Source of the DNA: a virus
Direction: 5' to 3' (one strand)
Virus record (IMG/VR): IMGVR_UViG_3300020411_003797
Location: 1 to 64,000 of that record
Length of the DNA: 64,000 bases
Shown: one piece after another, positions 12,137 through 37,300 of the stretch
How the letters are laid out: each line of letters opens with the position of its first letter
How positions within the stretch are numbered: the first letter of the stretch is position 1
Notes under the pieces: generated by a model
The model's database searches: none
What the model was told of the DNA's origin: nothing
What the model saw: the letters and a program-made list of their open reading frames with translations, nothing else
Program-made: the position numbers and the translations under genes

Positions 12137-14185
12137 ATGCCTTACGAAAGTATACCAGGAGTCGGAGCAACATATTTGGATGGCGCTTTTGCCAGACCAA
12201 CAGTTTCGACACAGCCAAAGATTATTATTCTTGGCACAGCTGAAAAAGGGTTAAGCTATAGACTCTACAATGTCAGGAGCGTTGCAGCTGCTGAAGAAGA
12301 GTTCGGCAAAACTGCAGAATTTATGAAGCCACTTCATGAAGCTCTTGCGCAAGGCGCAGACAATATTGCTGTAATGCGTATTGGTGGAACGAAAGGTGTC
12401 TTAAATATAGTAGAATCAAGTGGTGGAAAATTAAAGGTTACACCAGAATATCGTGATGATAAAATTCTTGAACGCTACTCAATGGTTGTCACTGCAAACG
12501 CCGATAGTGACGCAAGAGTTCTAATTTGGGACTTGCAAGATGAACAGTGGGTTTACGATTCTGATGAAATCCTTGTTATAGATCTTGGAATTGTTAAAGT
12601 AGAATTTACTACTGTTGGTTCTGACAAATGGCTTCACACCCATACAACTGGTGATATCAACTATCCAGATGATTCAACAAAAACGAAAACGTTGGCCGAG
12701 CTTAAAGCAGATGGTCTTTGGACTGGTGTTGGCTCTTTTACTACCGGCACCGCAACTGCAGGTACCGATGGTCACAAAACAATGGCTCAAGTTCAGCGCT
12801 ACGCCGCACTTGAACATGCCTACGGAATTCTAGATTATAGAGATGGTGATTATGTCATTCCTTGCGGAACACATATGGACGCATGGAATGTAACTGACAC
12901 AGATGACTATTCTCACTGGACAGGTGGCGGAAGCCCGATGAGAACTGGACCTAGCTTCTCTAGTGTTCCAACGGCAGGAGAAACTAGCGGCACCAACATT
13001 GATATGCTTGGTTTCCTCTGGCAATATCAGTACCGAGGTAAGGTTTACACTTGGTTCTTAAATACCCCAAACCCTGCTACAGCTACCGTACTTAGTCACG
13101 CCGACCTTACCGGCGATACTGTCCCAACTGCAGTAACTGATAAGTATGCTGCTGCAGTCGCAGCGGAAGTAAGAGAATGCAGCTTTGCTCACCAGCTTGC
13201 TAGCTTTTGCTACAGAGCCTCTACAGTATGGAAGTCGATGATTGGAATCATCTCTACTAGAGGGCCAGATGGATACGACAGGTCAAGTGTTGCCGAGTGG
13301 GCTGGACAACTTCCAGAACTTACTTATTTTGGAACTGATCTAGGTATTGATGCGGTTGCAGATAACGGCGATGGTCTTCTTGGTCACAAATTTGTTGGTG
13401 GTGCTACCAGCTACAGAGATGGAATATTGGATGCTTCCAGTGGAGCAACAACCACTGACGGTCTTGCTTACGGTGGCTACATCCTAACCAAGGGAGAATC
13501 TCTTCCAAATGGTACAAACTATGTCTACGGAATTAACGACAATGATGAAGCTGTTGATGCTAACAAAAAGCCGATAGATATAGGTAAGCACCTGTTGGTA
13601 ACTTATGATTACCCAGTGCTTAGCAACTCTTACAATGGTGGCAGCAACTATCGCGGTACTTTCTGCGGTACTTTAGCTGGCAAGCTTGCTGTTACCCCAG
13701 ACAATGAAGAGCCGATTGGAATCAACGGAAGAGTTCGACGAATTTCTTCTCCGCTTCGAATCAAGCCACCTCAAATGAACGAGTTGGCAAGAGGTAGACT
13801 TGTTGGCGTAAGAGCAGAAGAAGGCGTTGGATTCATTATTGTTTCCTGCAGAACCGCCGCTCACCCAACTTCCGATTATGCTAGATTATCTACAATTAGA
13901 TCGGTTAACAGAGAGATTGATGGAATTAGAGATATTGCCAAGAATTACATTGGTAAAGAATTCTCTAGTACTAGACTGATGTCTCTTCAAACCGCAATAG
14001 ACGGTTTCTTGAAATCTGAGAGAGCTCTTGGATTTAATCAAGGAGCTATAGCAAGCCTCAGTTATACAAGGGCAGACAAAATCATGGGTAGACTTACAAT
14101 TAAGTTGAAAATGATTCCTCCCTTCTCAATTGAAGCTATTACAATTGAAACGTCTCTCGCAGCCGAAGAGACTGAACTCACCTAG
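12137..14185 (+). CDS. Contractile tail sheath protein
   Basis: This 682-residue protein is the sheath subunit that contracts to drive the tube into the cell. The N-terminus (YESIPGVGATYLDGAFAR) has the typical sheath opening, and the C-terminal 110 residues carry the conserved sheath fold: a helix with RLSTIRSVNREIDGIRDIA, the YIGKEFSSTR turn, ALGFNQGAI, and the final strands around RLTIKLKMIPPFSIEAITIE. The central 450 residues are the variable outward-facing domains. The gene has one of the strongest ribosome binding sites in the window and is followed 13 bases later by the tail tube gene, as in most myoviruses. This gene is the main evidence that the tail is contractile. Confidence 0.93.
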   Translation: MPYESIPGVGATYLDGAFARPTVSTQPKIIILGTAEKGLSYRLYNVRSVAAAEEEFGKTAEFMKPLHEALAQGADNIAVMRIGGTKGVLNIVESSGGKLKVTPEYRDDKILERYSMVVTANADSDARVLIWDLQDEQWVYDSDEILVIDLGIVKVEFTTVGSDKWLHTHTTGDINYPDDSTKTKTLAELKADGLWTGVGSFTTGTATAGTDGHKTMAQVQRYAALEHAYGILDYRDGDYVIPCGTHMDAWNVTDTDDYSHWTGGGSPMRTGPSFSSVPTAGETSGTNIDMLGFLWQYQYRGKVYTWFLNTPNPATATVLSHADLTGDTVPTAVTDKYAAAVAAEVRECSFAHQLASFCYRASTVWKSMIGIISTRGPDGYDRSSVAEWAGQLPELTYFGTDLGIDAVADNGDGLLGHKFVGGATSYRDGILDASSGATTTDGLAYGGYILTKGESLPNGTNYVYGINDNDEAVDANKKPIDIGKHLLVTYDYPVLSNSYNGGSNYRGTFCGTLAGKLAVTPDNEEPIGINGRVRRISSPLRIKPPQMNELARGRLVGVRAEEGVGFIIVSCRTAAHPTSDYARLSTIRSVNREIDGIRDIAKNYIGKEFSSTRLMSLQTAIDGFLKSERALGFNQGAIASLSYTRADKIMGRLTIKLKMIPPFSIEAITIETSLAAEETELT

Positions 14186-14198
14186 GAGATAAAATATT

Positions 14199-14870
14199 AT
14201 GGCTACTTCATTAGAATTATCAAGAACTTATACTAGTTTTTCAGGCGTAGATATACGAGCTGTAGTAGATGGCGAACCTATCGGTCAGCTTCAGGCTATA
14301 TCTTATGCTGTACAAAGAGAGAAAGCCCCTATCTATGTTATGGGTAGGGTTGATCCTCTATCATTTTCTCGCGGTAAGCGCGGTATTGCTGGTACGCTAA
14401 TTTCACTTTTGCTAGATCAACATATTCTGTTTGGTAAGGCGTTTGGAGATATGAATTTCCTTGCAGACAAGGATGAAATTTACGCTGATCCAGCAGATCT
14501 TACTTCGGTTACGTCAATGGACGATCTCGGAGCAGTAGAAGACGTTCCTTTTAGTGCTTCTGATCTTGGCGACAACTTTACAGTTACAGGCGCTTGGTAT
14601 GTAGATCAGCTTCCCCCATTCGATGTAACAATAGTTGCAGCTAACGAATATGGCAAAGCAGCTACTATGCGTATTTATGGTGTGGAAATCCTAAACGAAG
14701 GCTCTGGTTTTTCAATTGATGACATTGTTATCGAAAACCAAATGACCTATGTTTGCAGAACCATTCTGCCTTGGCAAAGAATGGGCCACTGGGATCTGTC
14801 AGTGGATGGAAGCTCGATGAGCACGGTGAGCCCGAGTTCGGTCACATCAAGCACTTTAATTCCCATTTGA
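14199..14870 (+). CDS. Tail tube protein
   Basis: The 223-residue protein follows the sheath and has the expected size of a tube subunit. Its pattern is that of the tube fold: a first strand with SFSGVDIRAVVDGEPIGQLQ, a loop with RGKRGIAGTLISLLL near residue 65, and closing strands with PPFDVTIVAANEYGKAATM followed by IYGVEILNEGSGFSIDDIV. The gene has a TAGGAG ribosome binding site and ends just before a perfect hairpin. Two downstream genes share this outline and seem to be relatives. The tube call for this copy rests on size, position and hairpin-bounded expression. Confidence 0.82.
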   Translation: MATSLELSRTYTSFSGVDIRAVVDGEPIGQLQAISYAVQREKAPIYVMGRVDPLSFSRGKRGIAGTLISLLLDQHILFGKAFGDMNFLADKDEIYADPADLTSVTSMDDLGAVEDVPFSASDLGDNFTVTGAWYVDQLPPFDVTIVAANEYGKAATMRIYGVEILNEGSGFSIDDIVIENQMTYVCRTILPWQRMGHWDLSVDGSSMSTVSPSSVTSSTLIPI

Positions 14871-18699: not shown

Positions 18700-21600
18700 G
18701 TGGCATATCAACCTTACGGCAGTCAGTCGCCAATCTGGAGTGCAGAACAGTACACTCCTTGGAGCCCACCAGGTAATGATTTTAGAAACCTGGCCATAGG
18801 TGCAGGTTTGCTTGGTGCGGGCTTACTTGGTGCTTCTAGAACTGAAGTGGGTGGCGGTAAACTTGCAATTGATATTGTACAGTCGCACGTAAGAGCATTT
18901 ACTGAAAGAACTCCTTTCTCTTTATTAAACACTTTCCGTGTTTCAGAATTTCTTTCCCCATTTGTTTCAGGGGCTGCAAAGAATCTCGATGTAGGTACTT
19001 CTGTTTTAGATGCAAGCAGGGATGTTCGCTTCTACGAATATGGTGCAGAGCTTACTTCAAGTAAGCAAACAAAAGAATATTTAAAGACTATTCTTAGTAA
19101 AGAAGCCTATGAATCTCTAGGGGTTGGCCTAGATGGAGCGGGCATTGAGCTCAGGTACGAACAAGACGTAGCTGGCAAGAGTACTGGAAAACTACTAGGA
19201 AGAAGAGTAGAACCTAAGCTTGGAGATGCCGCCCCTGGTGGTGAGTGGAAAACCTTATCCAACAAGGTAGCGCTTTTTGAAACAGCTCCATACGAAGCCC
19301 AAATAATAAAAGACTCAACAGCACAAGCAAGACTGTCAAAACACAAGAGTGTCAATACCGCTTTTTATTCTGTAATGCAATCGCTTGGATTGACTGAACA
19401 GTGGGGTGTTGCTGCAAGAACAAAAGCTGATGGAGTTTTTGCAGTATTTGATAAGCAAGGTGGAGAGTTTAAACATAGAGCCGGATTTGCCCCGATCCCA
19501 TTAGAAGCAACTAGCACGATGAGTGCTAAAAGGCTTGCAGTCGCTTATGCTGGCGTACCTGCTGCTTTTGGAATGGAGCGATTTAACAGGCTCATAGAAG
19601 AAATACCATTCCTAGATAATCTTTCTAAAACTCTTGCAGATAAAACGGGTTTCCGGATGCAAGTGCAATCCGGCAAACCCCTAGATATGTTCTTTAGGTA
19701 TGGAGGTAAAGCGGCACAAATCGGTGCATTGTACATGGGCGTTCAGCAAGCAGACTGGGCTCGTAGAAACTTCGGGTTGCCTGGAGACATGCTTGTAGCT
19801 GGTGGAGTATCAGCTGGAGCAGCCTACCTTTTTAATAAAGTTAAGAAATCTGGTTCACCAAGAAGTGCATTTGCCGTTGGTGTTGCTTCTTTTTTTGGTC
19901 AGATGGTTCTGCCCGGCTTTGATGAAGGGATCATTCCAGGAGTAGCCACAACTGCCACAAAAGCCCACGTAGCGATGGCTGGTATAGGTGCTGTAACTGG
20001 AATGAACTACTACAGGCAAACCCTAGAGGGTTTGCTTCCAGGAATTAGCGATTGGAAAACAGGTGCCCTTGCAGGTGTAGCTCTAAGTATTGCCACTATG
20101 CCAGACTTCATTACTCGTGGCGGACTGCCTGGTATGGTTTTCAGAAGGATGACAAAAGAAGGAAGGCAATCAATCGGTCTTGGGCAATCAATGATAAACG
20201 CTCAATTCAACCAGCTGCCAAAATCTTTAAGCACCACTCAAGGCGAAGTTCTGTTCGATTTAATGTTTAGTGGAAAGGTTGAAGATGAAGGTCCCCTCAA
20301 GACCTTCCTAACTGATAAGGACGGAAAGCCTCGTTTTGACAGGGGGTTTGTAAAAGATACTCTTGGGATTAGTGAGCCTGCAGACCTTAGAACCAGAATG
20401 AAAAGAACTAGGTTGTATGGCCATTTGTACAATGAGGCTCTTAAACAAGGTGGAATGCCATACGCAGACGATATGCTGAGAGAGTTGCATTTTGCTTTTG
20501 AAGCATCCGTCAAGAAACAAGGAGAGCGTTGGCAAAACGACAATATAGTAAACAAAGCCTTAGCAGAAAAACTAGATGAAATTGGACGCTCTTATGCTGA
20601 AAAACCAGCTACTTTTGCGAACAGGGTAGCTAAAGGCGTTTCAGGCTTTAGAGCTAAATTTACGCATGCTTTATTTGGGGCAAGTTTAACTGGGGAGGCA
20701 CTGCTTGGAGAAACAGGAGCTTTTCAAAGACATGGATTTAAAAATAGACTTGGAAGGGTAGGTACTATATTTGCTGGCGCCTTCGGGTTGCACCAGCTGC
20801 TTACTGGAGCATTATTTGGCAGCATGGAAGGTCCAGCAGAGCTGTCTGCTATCTACAGTGGTAAAAAATCAGTCGAAGTAAAAAGAGGTAGATGGTGGGA
20901 AGGTGGGGGTACGCCTTTTGAAGGTGCTGACATCAAGTATCACAGGCCCCACGCTTACGTCGCCATGATGACAAGATCCAGACAAAAAGCAGCATGGGGA
21001 CCGAATGAAGATGAAATATCTCCTATTAGAAAATTCTTTCTTAAGAACTTTACTTACTATTTAGAAGAGTCAAACTATTACAGTCGACCCTACCCTATAA
21101 CGGGTGCCGCATTCGAAGATGTTCCAGTGGTAGGCAGGTTATTAGCAGCTACTATAGGTAGGGTAGTTAAGCCGCCAAAGCTTATGCATACAAGCGAGTA
21201 TATGCGACCTGGACCTGATGGAACAATAGAGTTTTTGCATAAACCAGAAGTTAACGGTCCAGAGATTGGTCTCGGAGGAAGAACTCCAGGAGTTCCGTAT
21301 TCACCTTTTAGTGCCGGCTATGTAGCTGGAGAAATGCAATATCAATTTAGAGAGCTTGAAGGTCTGACTGGTTGGGCAAAGAATATGGTCCAGAAATCTC
21401 TAACTGGTTTAGAAAATTTTGGAACTCAAAGACCAGTTATGGCTAGCGCTGGATCTATTACTGATCCAGGAGAAGCGTTTTGGGATATGAATTTAGGTGG
21501 TGGATTTTTCATGACAGAGGCAGTTAGACGCTTTCTTCCAAGAAAGCGTACTGAAATAGAAGAGTACAACCCTCTAACGAACAGAATGCCTCATTGGTTG

Positions 21601-22980
21601 CCAGACAGATTTAAATATGGAGATCCTTACAGAAACATAGAAGCCGGCCACCTACGTTTACCTGGAGCAGGCTATGAAGCGATAAATCCAGTATTGAAAG
21701 GGATGTCAATGGAAGAATATCCAGACATCTATAAGTACGCTATCTTAGCAGATGTAGCCGCACAATCTAAAGAATTCAGAAGATTGCGCCAGACCATGTA
21801 CAGAAGAAGAATGGAAGGCATAACTACTGAATCAGAAAACGCCTTAATGGATGCAACAGATAGACTTTACAATGAAAGAATGACTCCAGATTATGACAGA
21901 GTTCATCCAAATGCATTAGAGCTTCCTTTTATTTCAAACGTCACCCAGGACGCTCAACAAAGAGCTCAAAGGTTTGTTAGAAAAGCAGTTGCACCTGTAG
22001 AGTATATGATTCCTGGCGGATTCAGACCAGTACAGAAGCTCATGTCTGATAGAGACCCTATAGAAGATTATGAATATAAACGACTTTATGGTAGTCAGTT
22101 TGCCTTCTGGGATAAGCCAGTAAGAGATTGGTTTAGACCTGCTTTCTCTAGTGCTGCAAATTTCTTAGGTTACGAAGGTAAACCCGGTTGGAGAGTAGAG
22201 GCTGATGCGCAACAAGAATATTTTGATAAATTAGAATTTCAAAAACAAATGATGTTAGCAACACAAGCACAAGCCAGAGGTGATAATAAAGCTAAAAGAA
22301 TGCATTTGGCAAGAGCTAATAGAACTAGATACGGCGTAAATCCTCAATCTAGCGCAATGTCTATATATATGACGTTACCCGAATCAGAGAAAAAGTTTTT
22401 CGATGCTTTTAGTATGGCTTCCGAAGGTGAGCGTGAACGGATTTTACAAATGATCCCTTCTGATCAAGCGCACTTATACCAAACGATTTGGAGTAGATTA
22501 GATCAAGGCGATCCAACACTTTATACCGGCTCTATAGCCTCGGTTTCAGAACAGCATTTAAATAGACAATTCCATAACTTACAAGAGTATAACTATAACA
22601 ATCCAATGCCAAGTGAAGATTGGATTGGGTGGCGTGAAGATGTTAACATAGATGATGTTGAGTTAAGGTATATTGATTCTCTTGGAAAAGATCTTCACGA
22701 GTATGGCTATTGGCATTCTCAAAGAAGACAGCTTGCAAGAAAGAATTATCTGCAAGACTCAGAACAATTTTTGCACGATGTTCCAGGTCCTGATCCATTC
22801 AGTGTTGCTGGCCAATTGTACAGTGCGGGAAGAAATGCTTTTCAAGTAAGAAGTCCAAATCAATCAAGTGCTCACAGTTATAATAGTTTTTACTCTAGAG
22901 GTCATGGAAGTTTTTATATGAATGATGATAGAAATGAAGAGATAACGAGTGGAATACTTAGTGTTTTAAGAGGAGACTAG
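18700..22980 (+). CDS. Giant virion protein 1 (tape measure or ejected protein candidate)
   Basis: The 1426-residue protein follows the chaperone-like genes, the usual tape measure position. It starts with GTG at 18700, supported by AGAGGGA upstream. Hydrophobic Gly/Ala-rich segments occur near residues 28-45, 345-400 and 690-710, as in tape measure or ejected internal proteins. Long coiled coils are not obvious, which is unusual for a tape measure. Residues 957-995 hold a dense Pro/aromatic motif: NPLTNRMPHWLP, then YGDPYRNI, then LRLPGAGYEAI. Residues 1180-1426 are charged and helical. The next giant gene begins one base after its stop, so the two may act together. Candidate roles are tape measure or a protein ejected with the DNA; neither is proven. 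Confidence 0.6.
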   Translation: MAYQPYGSQSPIWSAEQYTPWSPPGNDFRNLAIGAGLLGAGLLGASRTEVGGGKLAIDIVQSHVRAFTERTPFSLLNTFRVSEFLSPFVSGAAKNLDVGTSVLDASRDVRFYEYGAELTSSKQTKEYLKTILSKEAYESLGVGLDGAGIELRYEQDVAGKSTGKLLGRRVEPKLGDAAPGGEWKTLSNKVALFETAPYEAQIIKDSTAQARLSKHKSVNTAFYSVMQSLGLTEQWGVAARTKADGVFAVFDKQGGEFKHRAGFAPIPLEATSTMSAKRLAVAYAGVPAAFGMERFNRLIEEIPFLDNLSKTLADKTGFRMQVQSGKPLDMFFRYGGKAAQIGALYMGVQQADWARRNFGLPGDMLVAGGVSAGAAYLFNKVKKSGSPRSAFAVGVASFFGQMVLPGFDEGIIPGVATTATKAHVAMAGIGAVTGMNYYRQTLEGLLPGISDWKTGALAGVALSIATMPDFITRGGLPGMVFRRMTKEGRQSIGLGQSMINAQFNQLPKSLSTTQGEVLFDLMFSGKVEDEGPLKTFLTDKDGKPRFDRGFVKDTLGISEPADLRTRMKRTRLYGHLYNEALKQGGMPYADDMLRELHFAFEASVKKQGERWQNDNIVNKALAEKLDEIGRSYAEKPATFANRVAKGVSGFRAKFTHALFGASLTGEALLGETGAFQRHGFKNRLGRVGTIFAGAFGLHQLLTGALFGSMEGPAELSAIYSGKKSVEVKRGRWWEGGGTPFEGADIKYHRPHAYVAMMTRSRQKAAWGPNEDEISPIRKFFLKNFTYYLEESNYYSRPYPITGAAFEDVPVVGRLLAATIGRVVKPPKLMHTSEYMRPGPDGTIEFLHKPEVNGPEIGLGGRTPGVPYSPFSAGYVAGEMQYQFRELEGLTGWAKNMVQKSLTGLENFGTQRPVMASAGSITDPGEAFWDMNLGGGFFMTEAVRRFLPRKRTEIEEYNPLTNRMPHWLPDRFKYGDPYRNIEAGHLRLPGAGYEAINPVLKGMSMEEYPDIYKYAILADVAAQSKEFRRLRQTMYRRRMEGITTESENALMDATDRLYNERMTPDYDRVHPNALELPFISNVTQDAQQRAQRFVRKAVAPVEYMIPGGFRPVQKLMSDRDPIEDYEYKRLYGSQFAFWDKPVRDWFRPAFSSAANFLGYEGKPGWRVEADAQQEYFDKLEFQKQMMLATQAQARGDNKAKRMHLARANRTRYGVNPQSSAMSIYMTLPESEKKFFDAFSMASEGERERILQMIPSDQAHLYQTIWSRLDQGDPTLYTGSIASVSEQHLNRQFHNLQEYNYNNPMPSEDWIGWREDVNIDDVELRYIDSLGKDLHEYGYWHSQRRQLARKNYLQDSEQFLHDVPGPDPFSVAGQLYSAGRNAFQVRSPNQSSAHSYNSFYSRGHGSFYMNDDRNEEITSGILSVLRGD

Positions 22981-22981
22981 T

Positions 22982-25900
22982 ATGCCTTTTTACGATGACC
23001 CTAACGATCTAAAAAATAAGGTAACCAAAGATGCTGGAATAGCAACTTCTTTGGTTGGTAAAGCTATAGGAATTGCACCCATGATTGTTGGTGCTGGTAT
23101 AGGTATTAATCGCATAATGTCTAACCAGTCGCTATCTATGTCTAATTTAAATACTGGAATACGTGGAGCCAACGTACAGGTTGGCAACAACTTAAGAAGA
23201 TTACAAGAAACTCAACTTCGCGCAACACAGAAAAGAGCTGAGCAGCTTCGTGAAAGTTTAATTAGTGGTGGTGAAATTAGAAGAATGCTTCAAGAAAGTG
23301 CTGAAACAAGAAAGCAAGTGATAGGGGCAACTCTCGAATTGCTAGATTCTTCAGACGCTACAGAAGCATCGTTGAAAGGTACTGTCAAAGAACAATTGCT
23401 TGAATTGATGGATAAAGAAATAGCTGGAGCTATTGAAGAAGAAGAAAAACTTGTAAGCAACATAATGAATACTATTCTGGAAACAGGAAGCGATGATACC
23501 AAGAGGCAAGCAAGTAGACTTTTTCAACAATTAGATACTTACTCAAACGTATTGTCGGGTCCACCAAATATAAATTTAAAAGGGTTGAGTCCGAACTACA
23601 ACCCCATATCTTACAACGATTTAAATGATGCAACAAAATCAGGGCTAAACCGACTGAGAGCAGCAATAGGTGAGGGTGCAGATAGTAGGATTCGACTATA
23701 CAGTCTTCAGGAAGCTACGGGACAGGGTATTTATGCTAGAGTTTTCAGAAACGCTCAACAAGCGAACAGGGGTTTGGCTGGTACTGGCTTTATAAGCGTG
23801 CCGCTACAAATGGCTGATGCTGTCCAGGGAGGAACTAAAGGGTTGGGTAAGATTGGAGTTTTCAGAGGTGGTCAAGGAACGACCACCTACGTAACCCCAC
23901 AAATTTTTGCTGATGCTGCAGGTGTTGCTGAAAAAACAATAAGATTAAATAAGCCGCTCACTCAAGCTATGATAGCAGAAGAGATGAGAAAGGGCAGCAA
24001 GGGTGTTTTCTTTGATGCTGTTGAAGCTGGATTAAGAACTTTTGAGACTTTATCAGCAAAACATGGAGCTGCCAATATAAAGCCGAAACACTTCCATAGT
24101 GCGCTAACAGATTTAAGTACACAAATGTCTAGAGCAGAAAGAGTTGGTGGCGTTATGGGCGCACATATGCAATCAAATCTAGCACTAAATAATGCGCAGA
24201 TAATGTTTACTAATGCGCAAAACTTAACTATGAATGAGCAAAGAACAATGAGAGCTGCTTTAGCAGCTGGCTCTAAGGGTCTCCTTGATGCTTCAGGAGA
24301 TCCAATGGTGAATCTTCTTGCAAATGATAGTGCATATTTTTCTTTAAGCTTGGGGCAGGGTGGCTCTCTATCTGCAGTTAGGCCAATAGGTGGTGTAATG
24401 GACAGGACACTTTTGCCAGTAGTTGCTCGTGAAAAACAAATATTGGGAAGGAAGGGTATGTTTGTAAACAATCCCCTAAATCCAGTTGGCTCAACTTTTG
24501 GCGTTGGAAATGTTGTTCAACAGTTTGGACAAAATCTGGAATTTGCAGATGGCGTTGTTAGTGGCGGTATGCAGAAAGCTGTTGTTCTTGACGTAGGGGA
24601 TGTGGCCAGATTTGGACTTGGGGAAGGCGAAGCCTACATGGGCTCAAGAGGAGCTGGACCCTTAGTTGCTAATGAGTTCACAAAGACTGTCGTGGATCCA
24701 ACTGTTTTTGGACATAAGAAAATGTCTACTCAATTGTTGAATGAGTTAGTAGAACGCAGACAAAGAGGCATGAGGTTACAAATTGGAGGCGGTCAATCAA
24801 CTACTATTTTAACTGGAATCAACAAGGGTAAGACAATTGGCTCTGTAGATGAATTTTTTGCTGCATTTGGTGGAAAGAAAGGTGGCGTTGGGCTGCTTGG
24901 CTTTGGCGAGAATATGGCTGAAATAGGTGTGCAAAGATGGGCAGGAATGAAGTCTTTGGATATTGGATTATCAGAAGTAACTGATGCGGCAGGAAAACAA
25001 TTATTGCATTTTTCTGGCTCATACACTGTCGAGTCTCCACATGCAAAAGTTTTTGGAATGCTCTTTAAAGGTACTGTGAAAGGAATAAACGAAAATGTTA
25101 TGAATCGTTTTGGAAATATGCGTATAGGCAATCGCTCTGCTACGCAACTTCTTGCACAAGCAAATATCGGTCAATCTAATTTGATGCTTACAGAGGGTTC
25201 AATGTTAAAGAAAGCACCAGCATTTTTAGCTAACCAGATGATAGGGGGTGCAAGCTTAATTGCAGGAGCTGACCCGAGAAAGCTAAGAGATACAATAAAT
25301 TTGAATATTGAAAAAGGTCTAAAAAGTACGAACTTTTTTGAAGCTGATGCTATGACAAGGCAAAGACTCTTTATAGAAGAGTCAACTCGTGGCACTGCTA
25401 GAGCTCTTGCAAAATCTGGTAAAGCAATTCCAGACGAACTTATAGGTATGGTATTTGCTGGTGCTTGGAAAAGCATGAGTGGTCTCGGCAAAGAAGGTGA
25501 AGATGCATTCGCTGGCATACTTGAAGGAGAATTCGGTAAGGGACAAGCTAGCCGAATAATGGCAGCATCAAGACAAGGTCTTGCATTGGGTTTGACCACT
25601 CTGACTCCAGGGCCTCAATCTGCAGAGTATAGAAGAAACTTGGCTTCCATGGAGCCAAGAACTTATCAATTCTTACAACACAGACTCCAAAACATGATGG
25701 GTCTTCCAACCGACACTGTCTCAGATTTTATGACAAGTGTAATTGCTAGAAAAGCTGGAACTGACAGAGAGCTAAAAGTCATGGAAGGTTTAACTCGCAT
25801 GACTAGTTCTATAGCTGGAAACACCAAGTTGCTTGAGCAATCAAGATATGAAAAACTAGAAAAAGTAGCTTATGACGAATTTATAAAGCATGGCGATACT

Positions 25901-28372
25901 GAAGAATCTATGAAAGCCTTTTTAAGGCAAGACAGGTTTAAGGGTGGTGGTGGTTTCATGTTGGATTTTGGCCCTTCCGGATCATCAACTAGAATAGCAG
26001 CGCAAAATGCGTTTGGGCACGGTGGGGGATTCTTTGTTGCTGGCGGAGACGTGATAGATTTAATGAAAGGCACAGAGATACCCGGCAGAGAAGGCAACAT
26101 AAAAATAGAAGCAGAATATATTAGGCGGGTAACTAGGTTTGCAAATGACATTGCATTGGTCAGTCAAACTGGTGCAATGTCTGCGGAGGCAGGTGCTAAA
26201 GCACAGCAAGCTGTAGGTAGTTTTAAAAACGATATGGCCGAAATATGGGCTACAGGTTTTAAGAATTTATTAAGAGGAAAGCTCAGAGGTTCTGCTATGG
26301 CAGTTGGTCAATCAATTTCTCTGGGAGGAATGACAACTGGCATGTTGTCAGGAGTAGAAGTAAGCGAAGAAGGTAAGGCTTTACTTCAAGATTACAGATC
26401 TGGTGTCAACAAAACTATAGGAAGTCAAGCTGTTGCGTCTTGGGAATATAATGCAGAACAATTGGCAAGAGCCAGGGGCGCTGTTTCTCACGTAAAAGGA
26501 AGAGCTGCTTTCGCAGAAACTGAAACTTTTCTTTCGGCTATGAATGAATTTATCTCTGGGGAAAAAGCATCTATACAAGCAATCTCCCCAGATGCTCCAA
26601 GCCCAAGAGCTGCTGCAGCAAAAGATGCTGGAGAAATATTTAGAAGATTCTTTATAGGAATGGAAGGGGGAACTGCAGGTTTCTTAGGCTCAGATGCTCT
26701 TGCAATGAGACACCCGCAACTTGGTCCTGGGCATATTGCTCCAGCAGCAATATTCAGGCATGCAGCCGAAGTTGGTTACGGTTCAGATGATGCGACTTTT
26801 AAAGCTTTTGCTCGCACTGCAGAAGGTGTTCAAGCTTTAGAAGATTTGCAAAAACATACTAAAAGAAAAATATCAAGCTTTGCGGACATTGCAAACTTAG
26901 ATCAAAAAGGAAACAGAAGAAGCATAAGTAGATTCTTCACAAGTATGGCAGAAAATATAACTAGTTATTCTTCTGGAGAAGGTGGTGGGCGCCTACTCTT
27001 CCCATCTATGGAGGTTGGTGTTCATTATGGACAACTGGGAGCTGCAAGAAGATTAGATTTAAGTATGGCTGCGGGTATGATTGGTGACTTCGATGGTGAT
27101 TTGTATCAGCTTATGTTCCCTGGAAGAAAAATGAGAAAATCTTTCCACCAAATGTCTGAGCAAGTAATAGAGCAAGATTTAATTCACAGAACTCAAACCA
27201 GAATTATGGTAGAAGAGTCAAAGCAAGGTATCAAGAATTTAGGAAAAATGCTTTCGACAGGCGAAGGACTTTCTGCTGCAAGATTCGTATACGAAGATGC
27301 AATCAAAGAACGCATTGCAAAAGATGTAGGTCGATTCGACGTTGCATTGGATCAACTTCGAATTGGCATAGTTAATACTACTGCCGGTGCCGAAAAGATT
27401 GCTATGCACCAGCAAGCATTAGCATTGCTAACAGCAGTTGAAGAAGTTGGTATCAAAGCTAAGAAGCTTCCCAGAGGAATTGAAATAACTCGTGCTGGTG
27501 AAGAAGCGTTAAAAACATTTATTTCTTCTGCTGGTCAAAAAGCAGAACCATTAGAGACTTTTATCAAAAGTTATGTTTTTGGTGGAACTGAATTGGCAAA
27601 AGGTGCAACAACAATCCACGGAGTAGATGTTAGCGGAATTGCTGATGCAGCCACTAGAAGAAAGATAGGCGCATCGCTAAGTGGAATGAGGCTTGATTTG
27701 CAAGGATCGTTTGACGTGATGAGAACGGCAGCTGTTACTGCAAAAGACATAGGAATAGAGGGAACTAAAACTGTAAGAAGATTGAGCTCTTTGGCGCAAA
27801 TGGATACGGGGCAAAAATTACGACTATGGAACTCTGCAGTTTATGAAGCTGGAGCAGTGCAAGGTGCATTCTTGCAAGGTGAACAAACTTCTTTGAGCAA
27901 GTTAAGTAGCCACCTTCACAAAGGTAGCCAAATGATTCAAAAAGCAAGTAATGCGTTCAGTTCAACAAAAATGGTTGGCCCGCTAGCTTTAGGCGCTGCT
28001 GCTAGTTTGGGCCTTGGTGCATTGTTGGGTGATAGCGGTTATTCTCCAACACCATTGATTCAGCCCGGAGAATTTTCCGATGCTAGAGTACAAGCTTCAA
28101 TAATGTCTGGGACTGCAACAGACAGACACATCCCGCCAGACAGTTTGCCAGTAGGCAGAGAATCGGAAATGATGAATAGACCTATAAATATTGGTACAGC
28201 TAGAGTTTCTAAAGATAATGCGTATATGATGAGAGGCGAAATTGTAAACAGAAACTCGATGTATGATATAATGGGTGTTCTTAGCAGAACTGGCAGCAAT
28301 GGAAGTATCATAATAAATGATACAAGAAGACCTATTACTAAACAGTATATTGATAGAGTTTCGGGAGAATAA
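22982..28372 (+). CDS. Giant virion protein 2: candidate two-barrel RNA polymerase-like protein
   Basis: The 1796-residue protein starts at ATG with AGAGGAG upstream. A hydrophobic segment lies at about 20-45 and coiled coil at about 70-190. DFDGD occurs at residues 1369-1373, with AAGMIG before it and LYQLMFP after it. In bacterial beta' the same core is AFNA-DFDGD-QMAVHVP, with proline at the same distance. RHPQLGPGHI (1243-1252) resembles the RxPxL motif upstream of that core. K689 and K696 in KVFGMLFKG resemble the lysine motif of the beta barrel. A strand-rich stretch (FMLDFG... FFVAGGD... IPGREGN) lies at about 997-1042. This order fits single-chain polymerases such as YonO and crAss-like gp66. 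Only motifs support it; a tape measure role is the alternative. The C-terminus has a hydrophobic segment near 1660-1685. Confidence 0.55.
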   Translation: MPFYDDPNDLKNKVTKDAGIATSLVGKAIGIAPMIVGAGIGINRIMSNQSLSMSNLNTGIRGANVQVGNNLRRLQETQLRATQKRAEQLRESLISGGEIRRMLQESAETRKQVIGATLELLDSSDATEASLKGTVKEQLLELMDKEIAGAIEEEEKLVSNIMNTILETGSDDTKRQASRLFQQLDTYSNVLSGPPNINLKGLSPNYNPISYNDLNDATKSGLNRLRAAIGEGADSRIRLYSLQEATGQGIYARVFRNAQQANRGLAGTGFISVPLQMADAVQGGTKGLGKIGVFRGGQGTTTYVTPQIFADAAGVAEKTIRLNKPLTQAMIAEEMRKGSKGVFFDAVEAGLRTFETLSAKHGAANIKPKHFHSALTDLSTQMSRAERVGGVMGAHMQSNLALNNAQIMFTNAQNLTMNEQRTMRAALAAGSKGLLDASGDPMVNLLANDSAYFSLSLGQGGSLSAVRPIGGVMDRTLLPVVAREKQILGRKGMFVNNPLNPVGSTFGVGNVVQQFGQNLEFADGVVSGGMQKAVVLDVGDVARFGLGEGEAYMGSRGAGPLVANEFTKTVVDPTVFGHKKMSTQLLNELVERRQRGMRLQIGGGQSTTILTGINKGKTIGSVDEFFAAFGGKKGGVGLLGFGENMAEIGVQRWAGMKSLDIGLSEVTDAAGKQLLHFSGSYTVESPHAKVFGMLFKGTVKGINENVMNRFGNMRIGNRSATQLLAQANIGQSNLMLTEGSMLKKAPAFLANQMIGGASLIAGADPRKLRDTINLNIEKGLKSTNFFEADAMTRQRLFIEESTRGTARALAKSGKAIPDELIGMVFAGAWKSMSGLGKEGEDAFAGILEGEFGKGQASRIMAASRQGLALGLTTLTPGPQSAEYRRNLASMEPRTYQFLQHRLQNMMGLPTDTVSDFMTSVIARKAGTDRELKVMEGLTRMTSSIAGNTKLLEQSRYEKLEKVAYDEFIKHGDTEESMKAFLRQDRFKGGGGFMLDFGPSGSSTRIAAQNAFGHGGGFFVAGGDVIDLMKGTEIPGREGNIKIEAEYIRRVTRFANDIALVSQTGAMSAEAGAKAQQAVGSFKNDMAEIWATGFKNLLRGKLRGSAMAVGQSISLGGMTTGMLSGVEVSEEGKALLQDYRSGVNKTIGSQAVASWEYNAEQLARARGAVSHVKGRAAFAETETFLSAMNEFISGEKASIQAISPDAPSPRAAAAKDAGEIFRRFFIGMEGGTAGFLGSDALAMRHPQLGPGHIAPAAIFRHAAEVGYGSDDATFKAFARTAEGVQALEDLQKHTKRKISSFADIANLDQKGNRRSISRFFTSMAENITSYSSGEGGGRLLFPSMEVGVHYGQLGAARRLDLSMAAGMIGDFDGDLYQLMFPGRKMRKSFHQMSEQVIEQDLIHRTQTRIMVEESKQGIKNLGKMLSTGEGLSAARFVYEDAIKERIAKDVGRFDVALDQLRIGIVNTTAGAEKIAMHQQALALLTAVEEVGIKAKKLPRGIEITRAGEEALKTFISSAGQKAEPLETFIKSYVFGGTELAKGATTIHGVDVSGIADAATRRKIGASLSGMRLDLQGSFDVMRTAAVTAKDIGIEGTKTVRRLSSLAQMDTGQKLRLWNSAVYEAGAVQGAFLQGEQTSLSKLSSHLHKGSQMIQKASNAFSSTKMVGPLALGAAASLGLGALLGDSGYSPTPLIQPGEFSDARVQASIMSGTATDRHIPPDSLPVGRESEMMNRPINIGTARVSKDNAYMMRGEIVNRNSMYDIMGVLSRTGSNGSIIINDTRRPITKQYIDRVSGE

Positions 28373-28375
28373 ACA

Positions 28376-31300
28376 ATGAGATCCGCAGGTGGTGTTGTAG
28401 ATAAAGGATTGCTTACTGCAGAAGAAGATCCTTCGAAAATAATTTTTCAAATCAACGATATAGATCTTATCATTCCTCCAACAAACATATCTGTTCGAAA
28501 AGAAGATATGATGTGGCAGTGGAAAACTTTGCGTACCAAAGTTTCTACAAAAGTTCCTAGTGGGCACGGCATTGTTCAAGTCTCGGTTAGACTGGTCTTT
28601 ACACCAGATTTATTCCTTCATATGCATAGGCTTATTTGTCAACTGAGGCATTCACCTTTTTGCTATGTAGAAAGTAGATATTTAAGAGATTCAATATGTC
28701 CAGATTGGCCTTTGTATCAGAACATGGCATTTACAATGACCAACCTTACCGTTCAGAACTTCAAAGGTAGTCCAGGAACATTCATGATAGATCTGGATCT
28801 CAGGTGGTTTAACTATAAACCTTATGCTTTAAACTGGATGTATCGAGATGAGTGGCAAACAATTCCCTTTTATAGTTCAGATGGGAATAGTTATGTAAGG
28901 CGAACCATTGATACTTTTGGAAAAGAGTTATTAAGACAACCTACTATAACTTCGTTTGGAGATAGCGAACGTCGACCAGGCTCTGGACCTTTAGATAATG
29001 CTGGCAATACAGATTATGGCGCAATTGATAGCTTTGATTCTTACAGCAAGCCACAAGATATAACTGGAGGAAGAAGTATAAATAGTATGCTTTTTACTCA
29101 TGCGGGTGAAGTTTTTGACTTATTGCCAAGAGACCCGTGGGTGATGAGAAAAGCTACCCCAGTCTTGCCTCAGTACTCAAATATTTACAAAAGGTATTGC
29201 AACTACTTGCAACAAAAGAATCTCTACGAATGTTTTGGTGTAGATATAGCAGATATGATGGATCCAGGTGATTGGGCCAGATACACCACAGGTTATTACC
29301 CCTCGCCTACAGAGCCAAGTGAGGCGGAAATGGAAGGGCACGGTATTGATCGTTTTACTCAAGGGGCTCCAGTTAGTGAAACTTCAACAAGTATAGCTCC
29401 AAGAGCAGGCGCTCATTTCATAGTAGATGCACTTCACGGACCAACAACATCAAGAGCTTTAGTAGCTCAAATAGCAGATGCATGCTATGCCCAAACAAAG
29501 AAAATAACTTTCTATTGGCATGAGTTTACAGCTCTCGATGTAAGATTTGACATTGTTCAAGCTATGCAGAAGCAGCAACAAGAAGCTGTAAGAGAACGCA
29601 TGGAAGCTCTTAGAGTTCGGTCTCGAGGGCTAGAAGATATAGTTGGTGCAAGACAAGCTGGTAGTGGCTCAGAGTATGAGCCGGAACATGGCCATGACAG
29701 TAGTTGGACTTACGTTAGCGAATTTAGCGAATACTCTAGACGCAACACTTCCCCACGAGATGCCGACTGGGGTAGACTTCCCACAACTTCAGAACTCGAA
29801 GGAGAGTATTTAGGAGTTACTGATTATTTCTTTTATGCACCAATACCAGGATATGAAATAAATTCCGGTTTTGGAATGAGAACTTATAATGGTAAAACTA
29901 GACCTCACAATGGGATTGATGTTGCTGCTCCAAAAAATACACCAATCTATGCTGCAGAAGATGGAATTCTGTGGGTTAGCCAAACTTCTACTGCAAACAG
30001 GATGTCAGCAAGACAGCCTGATTATATGGTCAATACAACAACTGGTGAAAAATTTAGTGATTTTTCTGAAGTGCCTTTTGGCCGTGGTAACGGCTATGGT
30101 TTGCAGCTTACTCTCGAGGTTACTGGTTTAGCTGTGCTAGATGAATATGGTGAAATTCAACCAGGAGCTTCTTGGGAAATCACATACTCTCATTTAAATA
30201 AAGTAGAAGAAGTTGTAAATGGCAATCGATTGGCTACATACAACGGGACTCATGGAACTCGAGGTTGTACAGTTCAGTATCATGCAACTGGGATGGCTGA
30301 TGCTATTCAAGTACGTAGAGGTGATTTGATTGGTTATGTAGGAAATACTGGCTATTCTGGCGGCAACCATCTGCATTGTGAAACAACCCGTGCTGGTACA
30401 AAAATAGATCCATTAATATCTTTTACCGCTACAAGAAGTGAAGCAGCAACAATTTCTGATGCTTCAGGGGATGCTCGAACTCTTGAGGAAATAGACATAG
30501 AAATCCAAGACATTTTACAGGGTATAAATACATCAGATAATGATGGTGATTGGTTTGGGATCAACGATTATAAAGAAAGTCCTATAGATGAGGATTCTAC
30601 TGGTTCAAGTACGATTCCTGACGAAGGTGATGAAGGATGGGCCTCAGATTTAGAAATTCCTCCCGAAGAGCAAGAAAAAATTAGAAGAGAATACGAATCA
30701 TTCATACAGGCAGGCTGGGTAGAATATGAGGATAACCAAGATGTAAGCAACGTTCTTAAAAGAACAGTTGCATACACTTTTATAAGTGAAAACTCAAACT
30801 TCTGGCCAACTATGCAACCAGATTTTTCAATGCCGATAACTCAAGCAATGTATGAGGGTAGGGCAGATTCAAGCTATGATTCAAGAAGCAGCATACTGAA
30901 TATAAAATCCCCAGACAATTTAGTTGTAAGCAATATTGTAGGTTCAATAAATCATATTGTAGCTAGCATACCTCTAATTGGGCAAGAGTTCCCAACGCAT
31001 CAGCATCTCGGTTCAATGGAGCCTAGCTATGTATTAGAGTTTGTTACCAGTGCGGATAGCGAAAACAATGACAACTTATCAGAAGAAGGTGCATTGCTTG
31101 AGTATATGAGATCAAACCTCCAGAAAAATGCCAGAGTTTATCGACCAATTCCAGATGGACATTGTGTTGCAACAGACCATTTCATAACAAGACTTTTAGG
31201 CAGCTACAAAGATCCGGATTTCTTTTTACCAGAGGACAATGATCAAGAATTCTTAAAGAAAAGAACAGTAATCCATCGTACTCAGCAAAACACTGTTGAA

Positions 31301-34300
31301 GGTACTGCTGGCATGTCTTCTTTCGTAATGGAACTTTCAGAAACTAATCCCTATGATACAGAAGTACTAACTGTTATTTCAGAACAGCCAAGCGATAGGG
31401 ATGAATTAAGATCAAGAGTTTTGAATAAGATTTGGTCGTTAGACCTATCTGAAGATGGTCTTGCCTCATTGCTAATGGCAGAACTGACTAGAACTATTTC
31501 TGATCCAAAAGAAATAGCAAACTACCTTGCAGAACAAAATTTAACAGCAGCACATTTTGCCAATGTTTCCGATATTAAGGAAATAGAAAATCTCACTATC
31601 ATGGATCATGACGCCCTAAGGCGTCAAGAGTTTTTAACTACAGAATGGCCAATAGAACATTATGTTACAGGCTCTGGAAGAGCCCAACAATCAGACTTTC
31701 AATATATCAGAACAGAGCAAGGTTACGGTTACTTTTGGGAAGCTATGGAAGCTTCTGGAAAGATATCCAGTGGATCTGGAGGAAGTCAGACAGAGCTATC
31801 CCCTACATCAGAAATTGCTTACCAAAATAGTCAGATTGGAGCCGAAAAGAAAACAGCAAATTATATTCTAGATGATACTTCGGGAATGGCATTCAATTTA
31901 CATCTACCGTCACCAGGTGGTGGCTCTACAATTCCCGTCCAAACCGACTATGGTATGTACGAAGCAGTTAAGATGAATGAAGACAGAACCGGATCTAGCG
32001 ACTGGTGGCTAATTGGTAACAACTCTGTAACTGATGCTTTGCGAGAATCAGGAGATTTTGGTCTTCTTTTTGGAGAAATACATGATCGTAGAGAAGGTGG
32101 TGCTGGCGGTGGTTTGCCTTCGATTCCTGAACTTACTCAAAATGACATTGAATATTTTCAAAAAAATGCTTCCAGCTTTCCTGGAGGAATTCCAAGCGAG
32201 GGAGCAATACCTACAGCAGATGAAATTGAGACATGGTACAACCAAAATAATAGATCTGTAACTTCTGGCAACGTTGCTACTTTAACAGATAAGTATGTCA
32301 TCAATTCTACAGACTATTATGATGTGCATCAAACAGATCTTGGTTCAGTAACTGCAAAAGAAGGTAGTGGAGAAGAACAGGTAAGTGCTTTAAAAGAACT
32401 CTGGATGACTCTTAATAATATTTTGAGAACCGGAAGATTAATACTTGCAGAAAGTGAACTCCAGAATGGTTTAGAAAATGGAGATATTGCAAAAGAGCTT
32501 TACGATCTACCAGAAGAAGCAACTAAGGGTTGCATGTGGTCGGGCTATATTAGTTGGCTGATGTATTATTTTAGAGAACTAGCTGCAACTGGAGAAGGTT
32601 ATGACAGCTATGAAGAGCTTGCAGCTGCCACTGAAGGATTGACTCCTGCAGATATTGACGGGATATACGGAACAGTCAACTGGGGCTTCAACATAGAGTC
32701 AAAACTTAAAAATCAAGATTTGCAATGGATTGAAGGAAACGCCATGATGACGCTTAGCGAAGAAAGGCAAAACTTTCTAGAACCATTTGCAGATGTTTGG
32801 GAAGCCTGGGGCACAAACATGCCTACCGATATTGCTGCAGGCAATTTTACTGGAGAAATGTTCAACAGCACAGATAGTGAAGTTCGAGAAGCTCAGCAAA
32901 GATTTGATAATGCTGTACAGGGCTTAGGTAGGATTTACGCACAAAGCGTAATACCTTTCAACAAGGGACTAAAGATGGAAGTTATAGGGGATCTAGTACC
33001 CTCCATAGCTGAAGCTCTTACTCATAGTTTCGTTGATGAAGTCTTGGGTGGTAATCGATACTTTGGTGTTCGAGATCAAGTCAATATTTTTAACGATTGG
33101 TTTTTTAGTCCAGAGTACTTAATGAACTCACCTACCATGTCTGGGTGGCTTTACTCTTTTAGGCAAGGAGCAATGACGGCTGGTGCTACTGGTTGGATTC
33201 TTGTTGGCTTGCTATGGGCGGGAACGGCTGCTGCTGCTGCGATACCTTTTGATGGACCAGCAGGGGAGGCAGCACTTGGTGCAGCTGCATTAGCAAGAAC
33301 ACGATCAATGTTGATGGCGGGTACAACTAAAGGGATGAGCGCACAACAACTCGCAGCATATACTCAGCAAGGTGTTGGTCGACAACTAGTTACTCAATTT
33401 GGCAGAGGTCAAAATATGGGGCTTTTAGCAGGAGGAACTCAGGTTGCTGTTGACCCCTTCTTGCAATTAAAGACAGCAACTGATAAAGCCCGCGGCAGAG
33501 TATTTGAACCTACAGCTCCAGGTACTACACCAGGGATAATCGGAGAAAGTCCCTGGGCGTTCATGCAGCACAATGTTGTGGGAGGCACTCCCGAAAAGGG
33601 AGAGTTTGCTTGGCAAATGACTATGAATCAGTCTCCAGATCCAGGTCTTGACAATTTGACAAACCTAGATCAAGAAAGACAAAAACTTGCTCAGTTAAAA
33701 AGAATTTTAACTGAATTTGCAGACCGTATAATTGGTAGTCCTGCACTGATGGCCGCAATTGGCTTTGCAGACACAGAGTTGCCCGAACAAGGATTAGTAA
33801 ATGAATATGTTGGTGCAGAATGTTATCCAGATCTAGATCTTCCTAAACATCCGTATTACGACAGTCGTTTTGCATATTCTGTAACTCCAGACTTTTATAT
33901 GTGGAACGCTTATGAAGATGCTGGTCTTGGCGTAAGAGGGGCAATAGAAGAAGAAGTTTATAATCAAAGCAGAATTGCTGTTGAAGCTGCATACCGTTTT
34001 CACAAACGTACACAGAAAAATGGTCTTGAGCCAAAATCTGATGCAGGACTTAGTGTCTATTCTGCTTCAGCAGATCTTACTCCCAGGCTTTCAAGAATAG
34101 TTTCTCACCCAGAGGGTAGTGATCAAGTTGACTTGATGAAAGCAGATGTTCATTATGAATGGGCAGTACCCGGTGCCGCTCCTGGACCTGAAGGTAACCC
34201 TTACGATAATCCTGGTACAGCAAGGGTTTACGGAAAGCCTGTTGGTTCAGACAATACTTCTGCATGGGTAGATACCGGTCCCACTGGCAACCCCTTCCAT

Positions 34301-37300
34301 GGTTCTTTATTTGGACTTAACTCTAGCGGACTTCCCAGAACAGACGAACTAAGCTCTTACAGGTCAAAAAGACAAGAATCATTACAAACTTTAATAGACA
34401 ATGCAGATGAAAGACATACGGGAATATACAACTCTACCGAAGTTGGACTTCTTTCAGCTGTGGAGCGTCCAGACGAAGATGTAAACACCTACGCTACAGA
34501 TGAAGAAATAGTTGCTGCAAAGACCTCAGTTATTCCTATCAGCAGCACTGATGGTAATCCCCAATACATAAGTCAAACTTCTGTCGACAAGCACACTTAT
34601 GGAGAACTAGCTCAAAAGATGAGAGGTTTCGAAGCGATGATGGGGTCAAGAGAAGCTTATCTTGGTAACGTTATAAACAAAGATACTGCGAGCAAAATAA
34701 GTAGAGACTTAGCAGAAAGTAGAATAAATACTATTGCTGAATATGAGCAGTTTTACGATCCTGCTAATTTGCAAAATTTAGCAAGAAATTCTTCTTCAGA
34801 TATTATTTCAAACAAGATGTCGATGAAAAGGGCTTATCCAACTTTCAAACTATTCTTCGTAGAAGAAGATGAGCATGAGTCAAGATTTCTTAATATGGAT
34901 GATTTTTACAGCTATAACGCTGTAAAAGAATTTACTTTCTATGCAACGAGAAAAGATCCTGGAGATACTGCTACTATAGTTCTGCAAAATGTAAATGGAA
35001 CGCTCGATGGAACTAGAAGAAACTCAATCGTAGATCTTGATTATTTTAATGAAAAAGAAGCTGAGCGTATCGCAGAGGATAATCCGAACATAGCAACTAG
35101 AGCAGATAATAGCGAAGTGGCTGCAAATGACCAGCCGTTTACAGCTCTTGTATTAAGACCAGGTATGAATGTTCAACTTAGGGTTGGTTACAGCAATGAT
35201 CCGAATATGCTGAGTGTACTTCTAAACGGAAGAGCGACAGATATTGCATGGAATAAAAATGGTGATTTAGTTGAGATAACAGTACAATCATTTGGTACCG
35301 AACTTACACAAAAAATCAAGGGTGTTGGCGGAACAGACAGAAGTGTAGATTGGGATAATCAAACTTACTACAGTACTCACCAACTTTTAGGTGCAATGAT
35401 GACGCAACCAGAATTGCATCATTTTGGAAGATGGGAGTATGGCAGACTTAGGCAGATAGGTGAAGATAAAAGTGCAGACTTAGATTTCTATCCATATTCA
35501 AGGGAGGGTTTTGTAGGAAACAATCCAATTTCAAACTCTCTAACAAGTTGGATATCAAACCACCCAGTATTATCTATAGCATTAGCTACTGGTACACTGA
35601 TTGCTGGAATGTTGGCAGTTAGAGCAGGTGGTGCCAGATTGGTTGCTCGAGGATCAGGTGGTCGAGTTGCAGGTGGGGGCCAACCTTTAATTGGCCCAAT
35701 GCAAGCAACTGAGACCTTTCCAGGCGCAATGGTTCAAACTGCTCGTCCAACCGTCACTTATGTGCAACAAGCTAGTCAGCGAAGCAGAGTTTTTAGTTGG
35801 TTGAGCTATAACAATCCTTTATCTCCAGGAGAAAACATAGTAGGTTATGCTCTTATGACCCCTTTCAGAATCTTAGGCAGCATAATTAAAAATGTGCGCT
35901 CTGGAGGGCCTGGTTGGGGTAGTGCGGTAAGAAGTGGCGGGCCTGCAATGAGGCTTGGAACTCGTTGGGGTTCATCAATTGATGATCTTGTCGCCAGTGC
36001 TGATGAATTAGCAGAAGTGTTAAAACCAGGTTTCAATGGTACTGCTGGTCGTGCAGCGACAGCAGCTAAACAACTTATAGACAGAATCAGCGGCATTAGA
36101 GGATCGGAAGCTGCAGCGGCTGCTGCAGCTAGAATAACTCAAGCTGCAAGAACAGCAGCGAATAGCACGGGAAACGCTCGACTACTTGCAAGACAAAATA
36201 TAGCAAGAGAAGTGTACGAACTTCAAACAAGGGCAGCGGTGCAAAGGTTTGCTTGGTGGCCAATGGGTGCTGCAGCACAATCGCTAAAAGGTTGGGCAGG
36301 AAGATCATCTGTAGCACCTTTAGCATGGATGGTTGGTAAAGCTACATTTGGTAATCTCTTTATTAAAGGTCCAGCCAACTTGGTTAGAGCTGCGGTGCCG
36401 TTGTGGATTGCTGCAAAGGGTGCAGATCTTTTATTAACGAATATTACTAGGTGGGCTCAAGATAACTATATAAACAAATACAGACAGTCTGTAGCAAAAG
36501 TTAAAGCAACACTAAAAATGACTCCCGCAGATGACAATCTTTTTCCTCCAAATCCTGCAAGCTATATGACTTTAGGTTGGTATGATAAGAAAAGTTTTTG
36601 GGAAAGAAATGTTGAAATGCCAGTAAGAGCAATGTTCGACAGCATACTAAACAATTATGTTGGAATAACTTACACTAAAATGTCTGAGTGGTTTGATGCG
36701 TGGTCTGATATACCTGACGCACACATTCTTGAGAAAAGAGTAAGACCTGGAGCTTGCAGATATAAATTGAGAGCACAAACGATTTGGCAAACCTTCCAGG
36801 AAATGTCACATAGACACCCAGGATGGATCTATGGGGTTAGACCGTATGGAACAAAATTTAGAAACACTATGTTCTTCGGAGTTCCTTCCCAAAGGTACTG
36901 GGCAAGACCAGGAGATACTAATTTTGTACAAAGAATGAATAAGATCCACAGATATCTAAATGACCCTGGAAATAACTACAATACTTTACGCAAACAAGCA
37001 GAAGAGCTTTATCCTCGCGATATTATTCAAGAATGGTATGACACTGCTCTCTTGGCCGCACAAGCACTAAACCCAACTCTTCCCAGCCCTTCCGCCGAAG
37101 CATACGAACGTTGGGAACACCTGGCCGGCGACACAGAGACAAAAGCCCAAACTATGTGGACGGATCATTTTCAAAACAGAATGATGCAAGAATTTGTTAC
37201 TGGTATGGAAAACAGATTTGTTCCATTCAGAAGGTGGCACATGATTACTTCTGATCAAGACATAGTTCAAAACGGAATCATGACAAGTGAATCTAGCGTA

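Follow-up and report, generated by a model that had tools for sequence, protein, structure and literature searches.

Tail genes of contractile-tailed phages include one for a putative single-chain two-barrel RNA polymerase

The window analysed here covers positions 1 to 64,000 of a virus record of 98,559 bp (IMG/VR IMGVR_UViG_3300020411_003797). A gene in tape-measure position (22982..28372, plus strand, as are all features below) encodes a protein of 1796 residues which, judging from sequence comparison and structure prediction, is very likely a highly diverged single-chain two-barrel DNA-directed RNA polymerase, encoded in the tail module and most likely packaged in the virion. From these data we infer its catalytic activity, its packaging and its tape-measure function. 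The initial annotation, made from the letters alone, had read the gene as a single-chain RNA polymerase-like protein, a reading now supported by conserved catalytic residues and by profile and fold matches to RNA polymerases (RNAPs). At the level of sequence and model, such a putative polymerase is a lineage-wide trait of these contractile-tailed phages.

Lineage and gene neighbourhood

On sequence grounds, the window phage is a contractile-tailed myovirus of the Bacillus phage 0305phi8-36/Acinetobacter phage ME3 lineage, with homologous portal and tail genes standing in the same order. The portal protein (1665..3557) has its nearest named relatives in Bacillus phage KLEB27-3, Moorella phage MTATph1 and Acinetobacter phage ME3. 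A tail sheath follows (12137..14185; PHROG 16991, E 2e-38), and then a putative tail tube (14199..14870), whose PHROG match (9206, E 2e-47) is labelled 'major head protein' and which we read as the tube because of its position after the sheath. Two ORFs (17243-18013 and 18026-18697), for which no family match was found, occupy the tail-chaperone position.

The gene immediately upstream of the putative polymerase (18700..22980, 1426 aa) is homologous to the virion structural protein ME3_35 (E 3e-61). Downstream lies a hub-like protein of 3388 aa with an M23 peptidase domain (28376..38542), recognised by synteny with ME3_37. Of the flanks first proposed, chaperone-like genes and a baseplate hub, the hub is thus borne out by synteny and the chaperones rest on position. 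The order ME3_35-like gene, 1796-aa gene, hub-like gene is that of ME3 and of 0305phi8-36, by homology to which ME3 is annotated.

The same protein occurs, identical, in a second record (IMGVR_UViG_3300030333_008051, 107,994 bp), and the two records are probably the same virus assembled twice.

Catalytic motifs and their conservation

All the motifs originally pointed out were found in the ORF. DFDGD occupies residues 1369-1373 (27086..27100) and would be the metal-binding DxDxD triad; the pair AA stands six residues before it (1363-1364) and a proline seven past the last Asp (P1380). Upstream, the RHPxL motif starts at residue 1243 as RHPQL (RHPQLGPGH, 1243-1251; 26708..26734) and would be the RxP motif of the first double-psi beta barrel, DPBB-A. 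KVFGMLFKG spans residues 689-697. A chance origin of DFDGD was considered and rejected, the motif arising in 7 of 20,000 shuffles of the protein.

Searches with the core motif brought in four full-length but divergent homologues, at 53, 33, 28 and 21% identity; one of them has an extra stretch of about 1000 residues separating RxP from DFDGD. K689, K696, R1243, P1245 and the three Asp are already invariant among these and the window protein. Alignment of 15 closer homologues left a fully invariant set that includes K689, K696, K744, E891, R893, G1099, G1103, R1243, P1245, D1369, D1371, D1373, E1443, G1450, E1488 and K1494. When the alignment is widened to 28 sequences, with identities as low as 13%, the invariant residues shrink to P1245 and the three Asp; R1243 and G1450 are kept in more than 90%. 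The proposal that K689 and K696 (25046..25069) are the barrel lysines holds in so far as both are invariant (15/15); K744 (25211..25213) is equally so, and the catalytic pair may be any two of the three. The segment GKLRGS (1099-1104; 26276..26293), by eye the counterpart of the beta' 'GKRVDYSGR' strand of DPBB-A, has both glycines invariant (G1099 and G1103, 15/15) and K or R at residue 1100.

We then collected the lineage with a profile of the ME3_35-like upstream neighbour (78 loci), and restricted the counts to the 54 non-redundant loci whose middle gene is large, taking a DxDxD that lies 300-560 residues from the C-terminus and an RxP that lies 25-140 residues upstream of it. Such a DxDxD is present in 41 of the 54 syntenic genes (2.4 expected when each protein is shuffled), and the DxDxD together with the upstream RxP in 34 (0.46 expected). 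In the adjoining hub gene, used as a control, only 3 of 37 have such a DxDxD. The residues between the Asp vary (DFDGD, DHDAD, DKDAD, DADGD, DVDKD and others), with the three Asp constant. These alignments show strong purifying selection, across the lineage, on the putative catalytic signature (DxDxD, upstream RxP and invariant lysines).

The distance between RxP and DFDGD, 126 residues in the window protein versus 36-60 in many compact family members, was expected in the initial annotation to reflect an insertion. The corresponding spacing in beta' is about 35. By this comparison, the longer gap is indeed an insertion, a clade-specific loop.

The C-terminal tail is also conserved (about 1733-1796, with R1733, G1752, N1779, D1780, R1782 and P1784; 28178..28369) and, by eye, members without DxDxD show a similar one. 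These members include a subclade (most of L155-L174, about ten loci) in which the middle gene has no DxDxD but keeps a similar tail and a GPPLLPGGSAYE motif. The subclade has probably lost the polymerase signature, and the DxDxD is thus not essential to every member. In MTATph1 (L095:29512-36868), the positional gene is followed by transposase and ATPase genes and then by an ORF that ends in a similar tail and in which no DxDxD was seen; it looks as if an insertion element had split the gene.

One might see the protein as mainly a tape measure or pilot protein, whose RNAP-derived domain is no longer a polymerase and now serves as a scaffold or DNA-binding element. The tape-measure position, the extreme divergence and the retention of the tail in the subclade without DxDxD would all suit such a protein. 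A scaffold, however, needs neither the Asp triad nor the RxP nor the lysines, and these are the most conserved residues wherever they are present, so that we regard this explanation as highly unlikely.

Sequence-profile relations to known polymerases

Direct searches with the 1796-aa protein gave no match in Pfam, PHROG or PDB (the last by phmmer), and a four-sequence profile of its family gave none either. Nothing useful came from tblastn against named phages with the window protein and two homologues as queries, and a scan of the genome contigs returned no match. For the window family taken alone, neither pairwise nor profile searches gave a significant match to any known RNAP.

The compact members are more informative. 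With a profile of 17 of them, the three best PDB matches are two AR9 beta' chains (E 0.0027 and 0.003) and the non-virion RNAP of phiKZ (E 0.31); the alignments run through the G-K..GS, RxP and DxDxD blocks. The AR9 entries are 7s00/7s01, which we take to be chains of that phage and which the output labels 'DNA-directed RNA polymerase beta' subunit'. A related profile (A8) aligns with AR9 beta' at the GKLRGS region. By hhalign, the compact group is homologous to the window family (98.6%, E 5e-16, 689 columns).

We then searched a combined profile of the DPBB-A (DxDxD) half, with 28 sequences and the window protein as first row, against 177,635 PDB sequences. It gave 30 matches at E<=10. Largest subunits of RNA polymerases account for 29 of them and come from archaea, eukaryotes and phages, a cyanobacterial-type gamma subunit included. 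The E-values are all weak (best 0.13) and the matches local, mainly about 45 residues around DxDxD; such specificity for RNAPs among 177,635 sequences would nevertheless be hard to explain otherwise.

Loops of the DxDxD type also occur in calcium-binding repeats, and the motif could in principle be a calcium- or other metal-binding structural element of an unrelated virion protein. Here, however, it is present in a single copy at a fixed place, lacks the following Gly typical of calcium loops and is co-conserved with the RxP and the lysines, while 29 of the 30 profile matches, as well as the fold matches described below, are to RNAPs. A calcium-binding loop was rejected on these points, and we hold this origin of the motif to be extremely improbable.

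For the crAss-like virion polymerase gp66, to whose motif order that of the window protein was initially likened, no significant similarity was found (0.1% by hhalign between the window family and crAss RNAP profiles), and the profiles lean towards beta'/A' subunits of phages and cells. Likewise, hhalign gave a probability of at most 3.7% between the window family and P23-45 gp96, and showed no signal beyond the motif against gp96, gp64 or crAss profiles. PF05183 (YonO/RdRP) has no match in the window protein or in the window genome.

During these searches we also came across giant phage proteins of up to about 3,500 aa with a GDFDGDxY motif (L021, L030, L063, L031, L052, L055, L040, L034, L057, L061, L050, L045 and L022). 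Many of them are joined by hhalign (99.9% between the L021 and L031 groups, 98.3% between the L034 group and L022), and they may form another unrecognised set of polymerases.

Predicted structure

We modelled residues 455-1570 (1116 residues) with AlphaFold from 16 sequences (pLDDT 75.8, pTM 0.44); an earlier model from 5 sequences (pLDDT 46, pTM 0.28) was discarded. The model has beta-rich zones where the two barrels are expected. Against the PDB, the top seven Foldseek matches are all RNAP second-largest subunits, including E. coli beta, vaccinia, Pol IV, Pol II and Pol III (probability 0.77-0.99, best E 6.3e-3). TM-scores to RNAPs are low (0.13-0.15 over 1116 residues) and the packing of the domains is uncertain, and the model thus supports the family and not a detailed geometry. 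Within these bounds, the Foldseek search proposed at the outset points towards the polymerase family. An all-helical tape measure was rejected, since the model has beta-rich zones and finds its closest structural counterparts among RNA polymerases.

The second barrel, DPBB-B, may be placed at about residues 530-745 (24569..25216, approximate boundaries), a strand-rich zone of the model; the placement also draws on the Foldseek matches to second-largest subunits, which concern the whole model, aligned residues not being displayed. DPBB-A was not recovered as a separate Foldseek match from this model. The DxDxD half thus points by sequence to largest subunits, and the model points by fold to second-largest subunits. 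Residues 1440-1497 (27299..27472), where E1443, G1450, E1488 and K1494 are invariant, are a putative bridge-helix region, an assignment suggested by long model helices past the DxDxD together with these residues.

In BFVD, an uncharacterised ME3 protein, a Microcystis phage LMM01 protein, and vaccinia and giant-virus RNAPs rank high. The LMM01 protein (A0A7J4), which bears the name 'PLD phosphodiesterase domain-containing', comes third among the structural matches and, going by the model, may be a misnamed relative.

Position in the tail module

The gene that precedes the hub in 0305phi8-36, orf146, has been assigned as the tape measure, chiefly through a correlation with tail length; its relatives are hardly recognisable by BLAST, its neighbours are virion proteins and only orfs 143/144 nearby are non-structural (PMC2147016). 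In KLEB27-3, the positional gene, gp034, carries the annotation 'structural protein'. The signature is shared by the positional genes of KLEB27-3 (RYPTI...DYDGD) and ME3 (REPAQ...DHDQD). As hmmsearch with the window family gave no significant match to ME3_36, KLEB_034 or MTAT_27, the link to the ME3 and KLEB27-3 genes is made by synteny and shared motifs. The window protein has hydrophobic segments near both ends by hydropathy: residues 24-46, a possible membrane helix found at the same place in most group-1 homologues (23051..23119), and residues 1664-1682 (27971..28027), a segment found about 130-140 residues before the C-terminus in most homologues.

These features bear on whether the protein is packaged. 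A genuine two-barrel RNA polymerase could be made late and act inside the cell, its location among tail genes being incidental; position alone is no proof of packaging, which is deduced here from genes only. Against this stand the retention of the gene, throughout about 40 divergent phages, at a place flanked by virion structural and hub genes, the tape-measure assignment of the 0305phi8-36 positional homologue in a neighbourhood where only orfs 143/144 are non-structural, the structural annotation of KLEB27-3 gp034, the hydrophobic segments near both ends, and the presence in a relative (G005) of a second, RdRP/YonO-like polymerase that is encoded apart from the tail genes. We thus consider an unpackaged enzyme unlikely.

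Comparison with other phage polymerases

The closest precedent we know, by analogy and with no detectable sequence similarity, is gp96 of the Thermus siphophage P23-45, a virion two-barrel RNA polymerase fused to the tape measure (PMC10770324). Like the window protein, gp96 is a giant single chain, encoded where a tailed phage has its tape measure gene, with DFDGD and RxP motifs (RNPVMGHGG in gp96, RHPQLGPGH here). In both families the polymerase domain is present in some relatives and missing in others, and the L155-L174 subclade recalls those P23-45 relatives whose tape measure has no polymerase. The two also differ. P23-45 has a long non-contractile tail, whereas the window phage has a sheath. 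The 5,002 residues of gp96 comprise an N-terminal polymerase followed by tape-measure, peptidase and membrane parts, whereas the M23 peptidase of the window phage is in the next protein. As to the fusion itself, gp96 shares one chain with the tape measure; the window gene stands in the tape-measure position, and a tape-measure role of its product would follow from the published assignment made for a relative. The statement in the initial annotation that no such enzyme is known in this tail context stands for contractile tails, for which we found no earlier report of a two-barrel polymerase in the open-access literature searched, and must be qualified for siphophages by gp96.

Other systems share some traits. 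The very large single-chain gp66 of crAss-like phage phi14:2 (6VR4) is a two-barrel virion RNAP, but phi14:2 is a podovirus and gp66 has no detectable sequence relation to the window protein. The multisubunit RNAPs of AR9/PBS2 and phiKZ, the best profile matches of the compact group, are split over several subunits, whereas the window phage has both putative barrels in one 1796-aa ORF. At the same gene position, the annotations of orf146, ME3_36 and KLEB27-3 gp034 go no further than tape measure, hypothetical or structural protein, and no polymerase annotation was found for any of them; ME3_36 and gp034 carry the RxP and DxDxD, and orf146 corresponds by position.

The lineage also has two-barrel enzymes encoded outside the tail module. 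Excerpts of two sources (PMC2147016; PMC7824862) attribute to 0305phi8-36 a YonO-like polymerase, orf99; those of the second, a jumbo-phage review, describe this enzyme and no tail-module polymerase. In G005, L175 (952 aa, C1 near 3070; RYPLVLPQALR...GDDDGD) is a candidate second polymerase, RdRP/YonO-like, matched weakly by PF05183 (E 0.0024, below the curated cut-off), unlike the window protein. Because G005 has L175 and 0305phi8-36 has orf99, the published scheme, in which a phage has a virion and a non-virion polymerase, may hold for this lineage; no second, non-virion polymerase was found in the 98.5-kb window record, which is possibly incomplete.

Proposed mechanism and implications

In the proposed enzyme, DPBB-A (about 1097-1385) would hold the catalytic Mg2+ through D1369, D1371 and D1373, and DPBB-B would supply basic residues, with K689, K696 and K744 as candidates. 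The two barrels together would form the active site, and the helices past DxDxD would form the bridge helix. The protein would be built into the tail and be ejected with or ahead of the DNA; like P23-45 gp96 in the scheme put forward for that enzyme, it would then work from the membrane channel and transcribe those genes that enter first. We suggest tail location, ejection and work at the membrane because of the tape-measure position, the hydrophobic ends and the published virion and tape-measure assignments in relatives.

A further step would be that the tape measure of the 0305phi8-36-like lineage is itself the injected RNA polymerase, a protein that sets tail length, uses its terminal hydrophobic segments to form or line the membrane channel, and transcribes the incoming DNA, the polymerase function having been lost in one subclade in which the gene was retained. 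We put the chances of this somewhat below even. The 3388-aa hub-like protein bears three hydrophobic segments and may be the one to act as tape measure or channel instead.

If the tape measure is indeed the polymerase, unions of the two functions would exist in both siphoviruses and myoviruses. A packaged polymerase by itself would give a widespread contractile-tailed group, cultured jumbo phages included, a previously unrecognised virion transcription enzyme. This would explain a gene long annotated only as tape measure or hypothetical, and would add one of the most sequence-divergent branches of two-barrel polymerases. It also makes it testable whether tail-borne coupling of transcription to ejection is general or peculiar to one group of Thermus phages.
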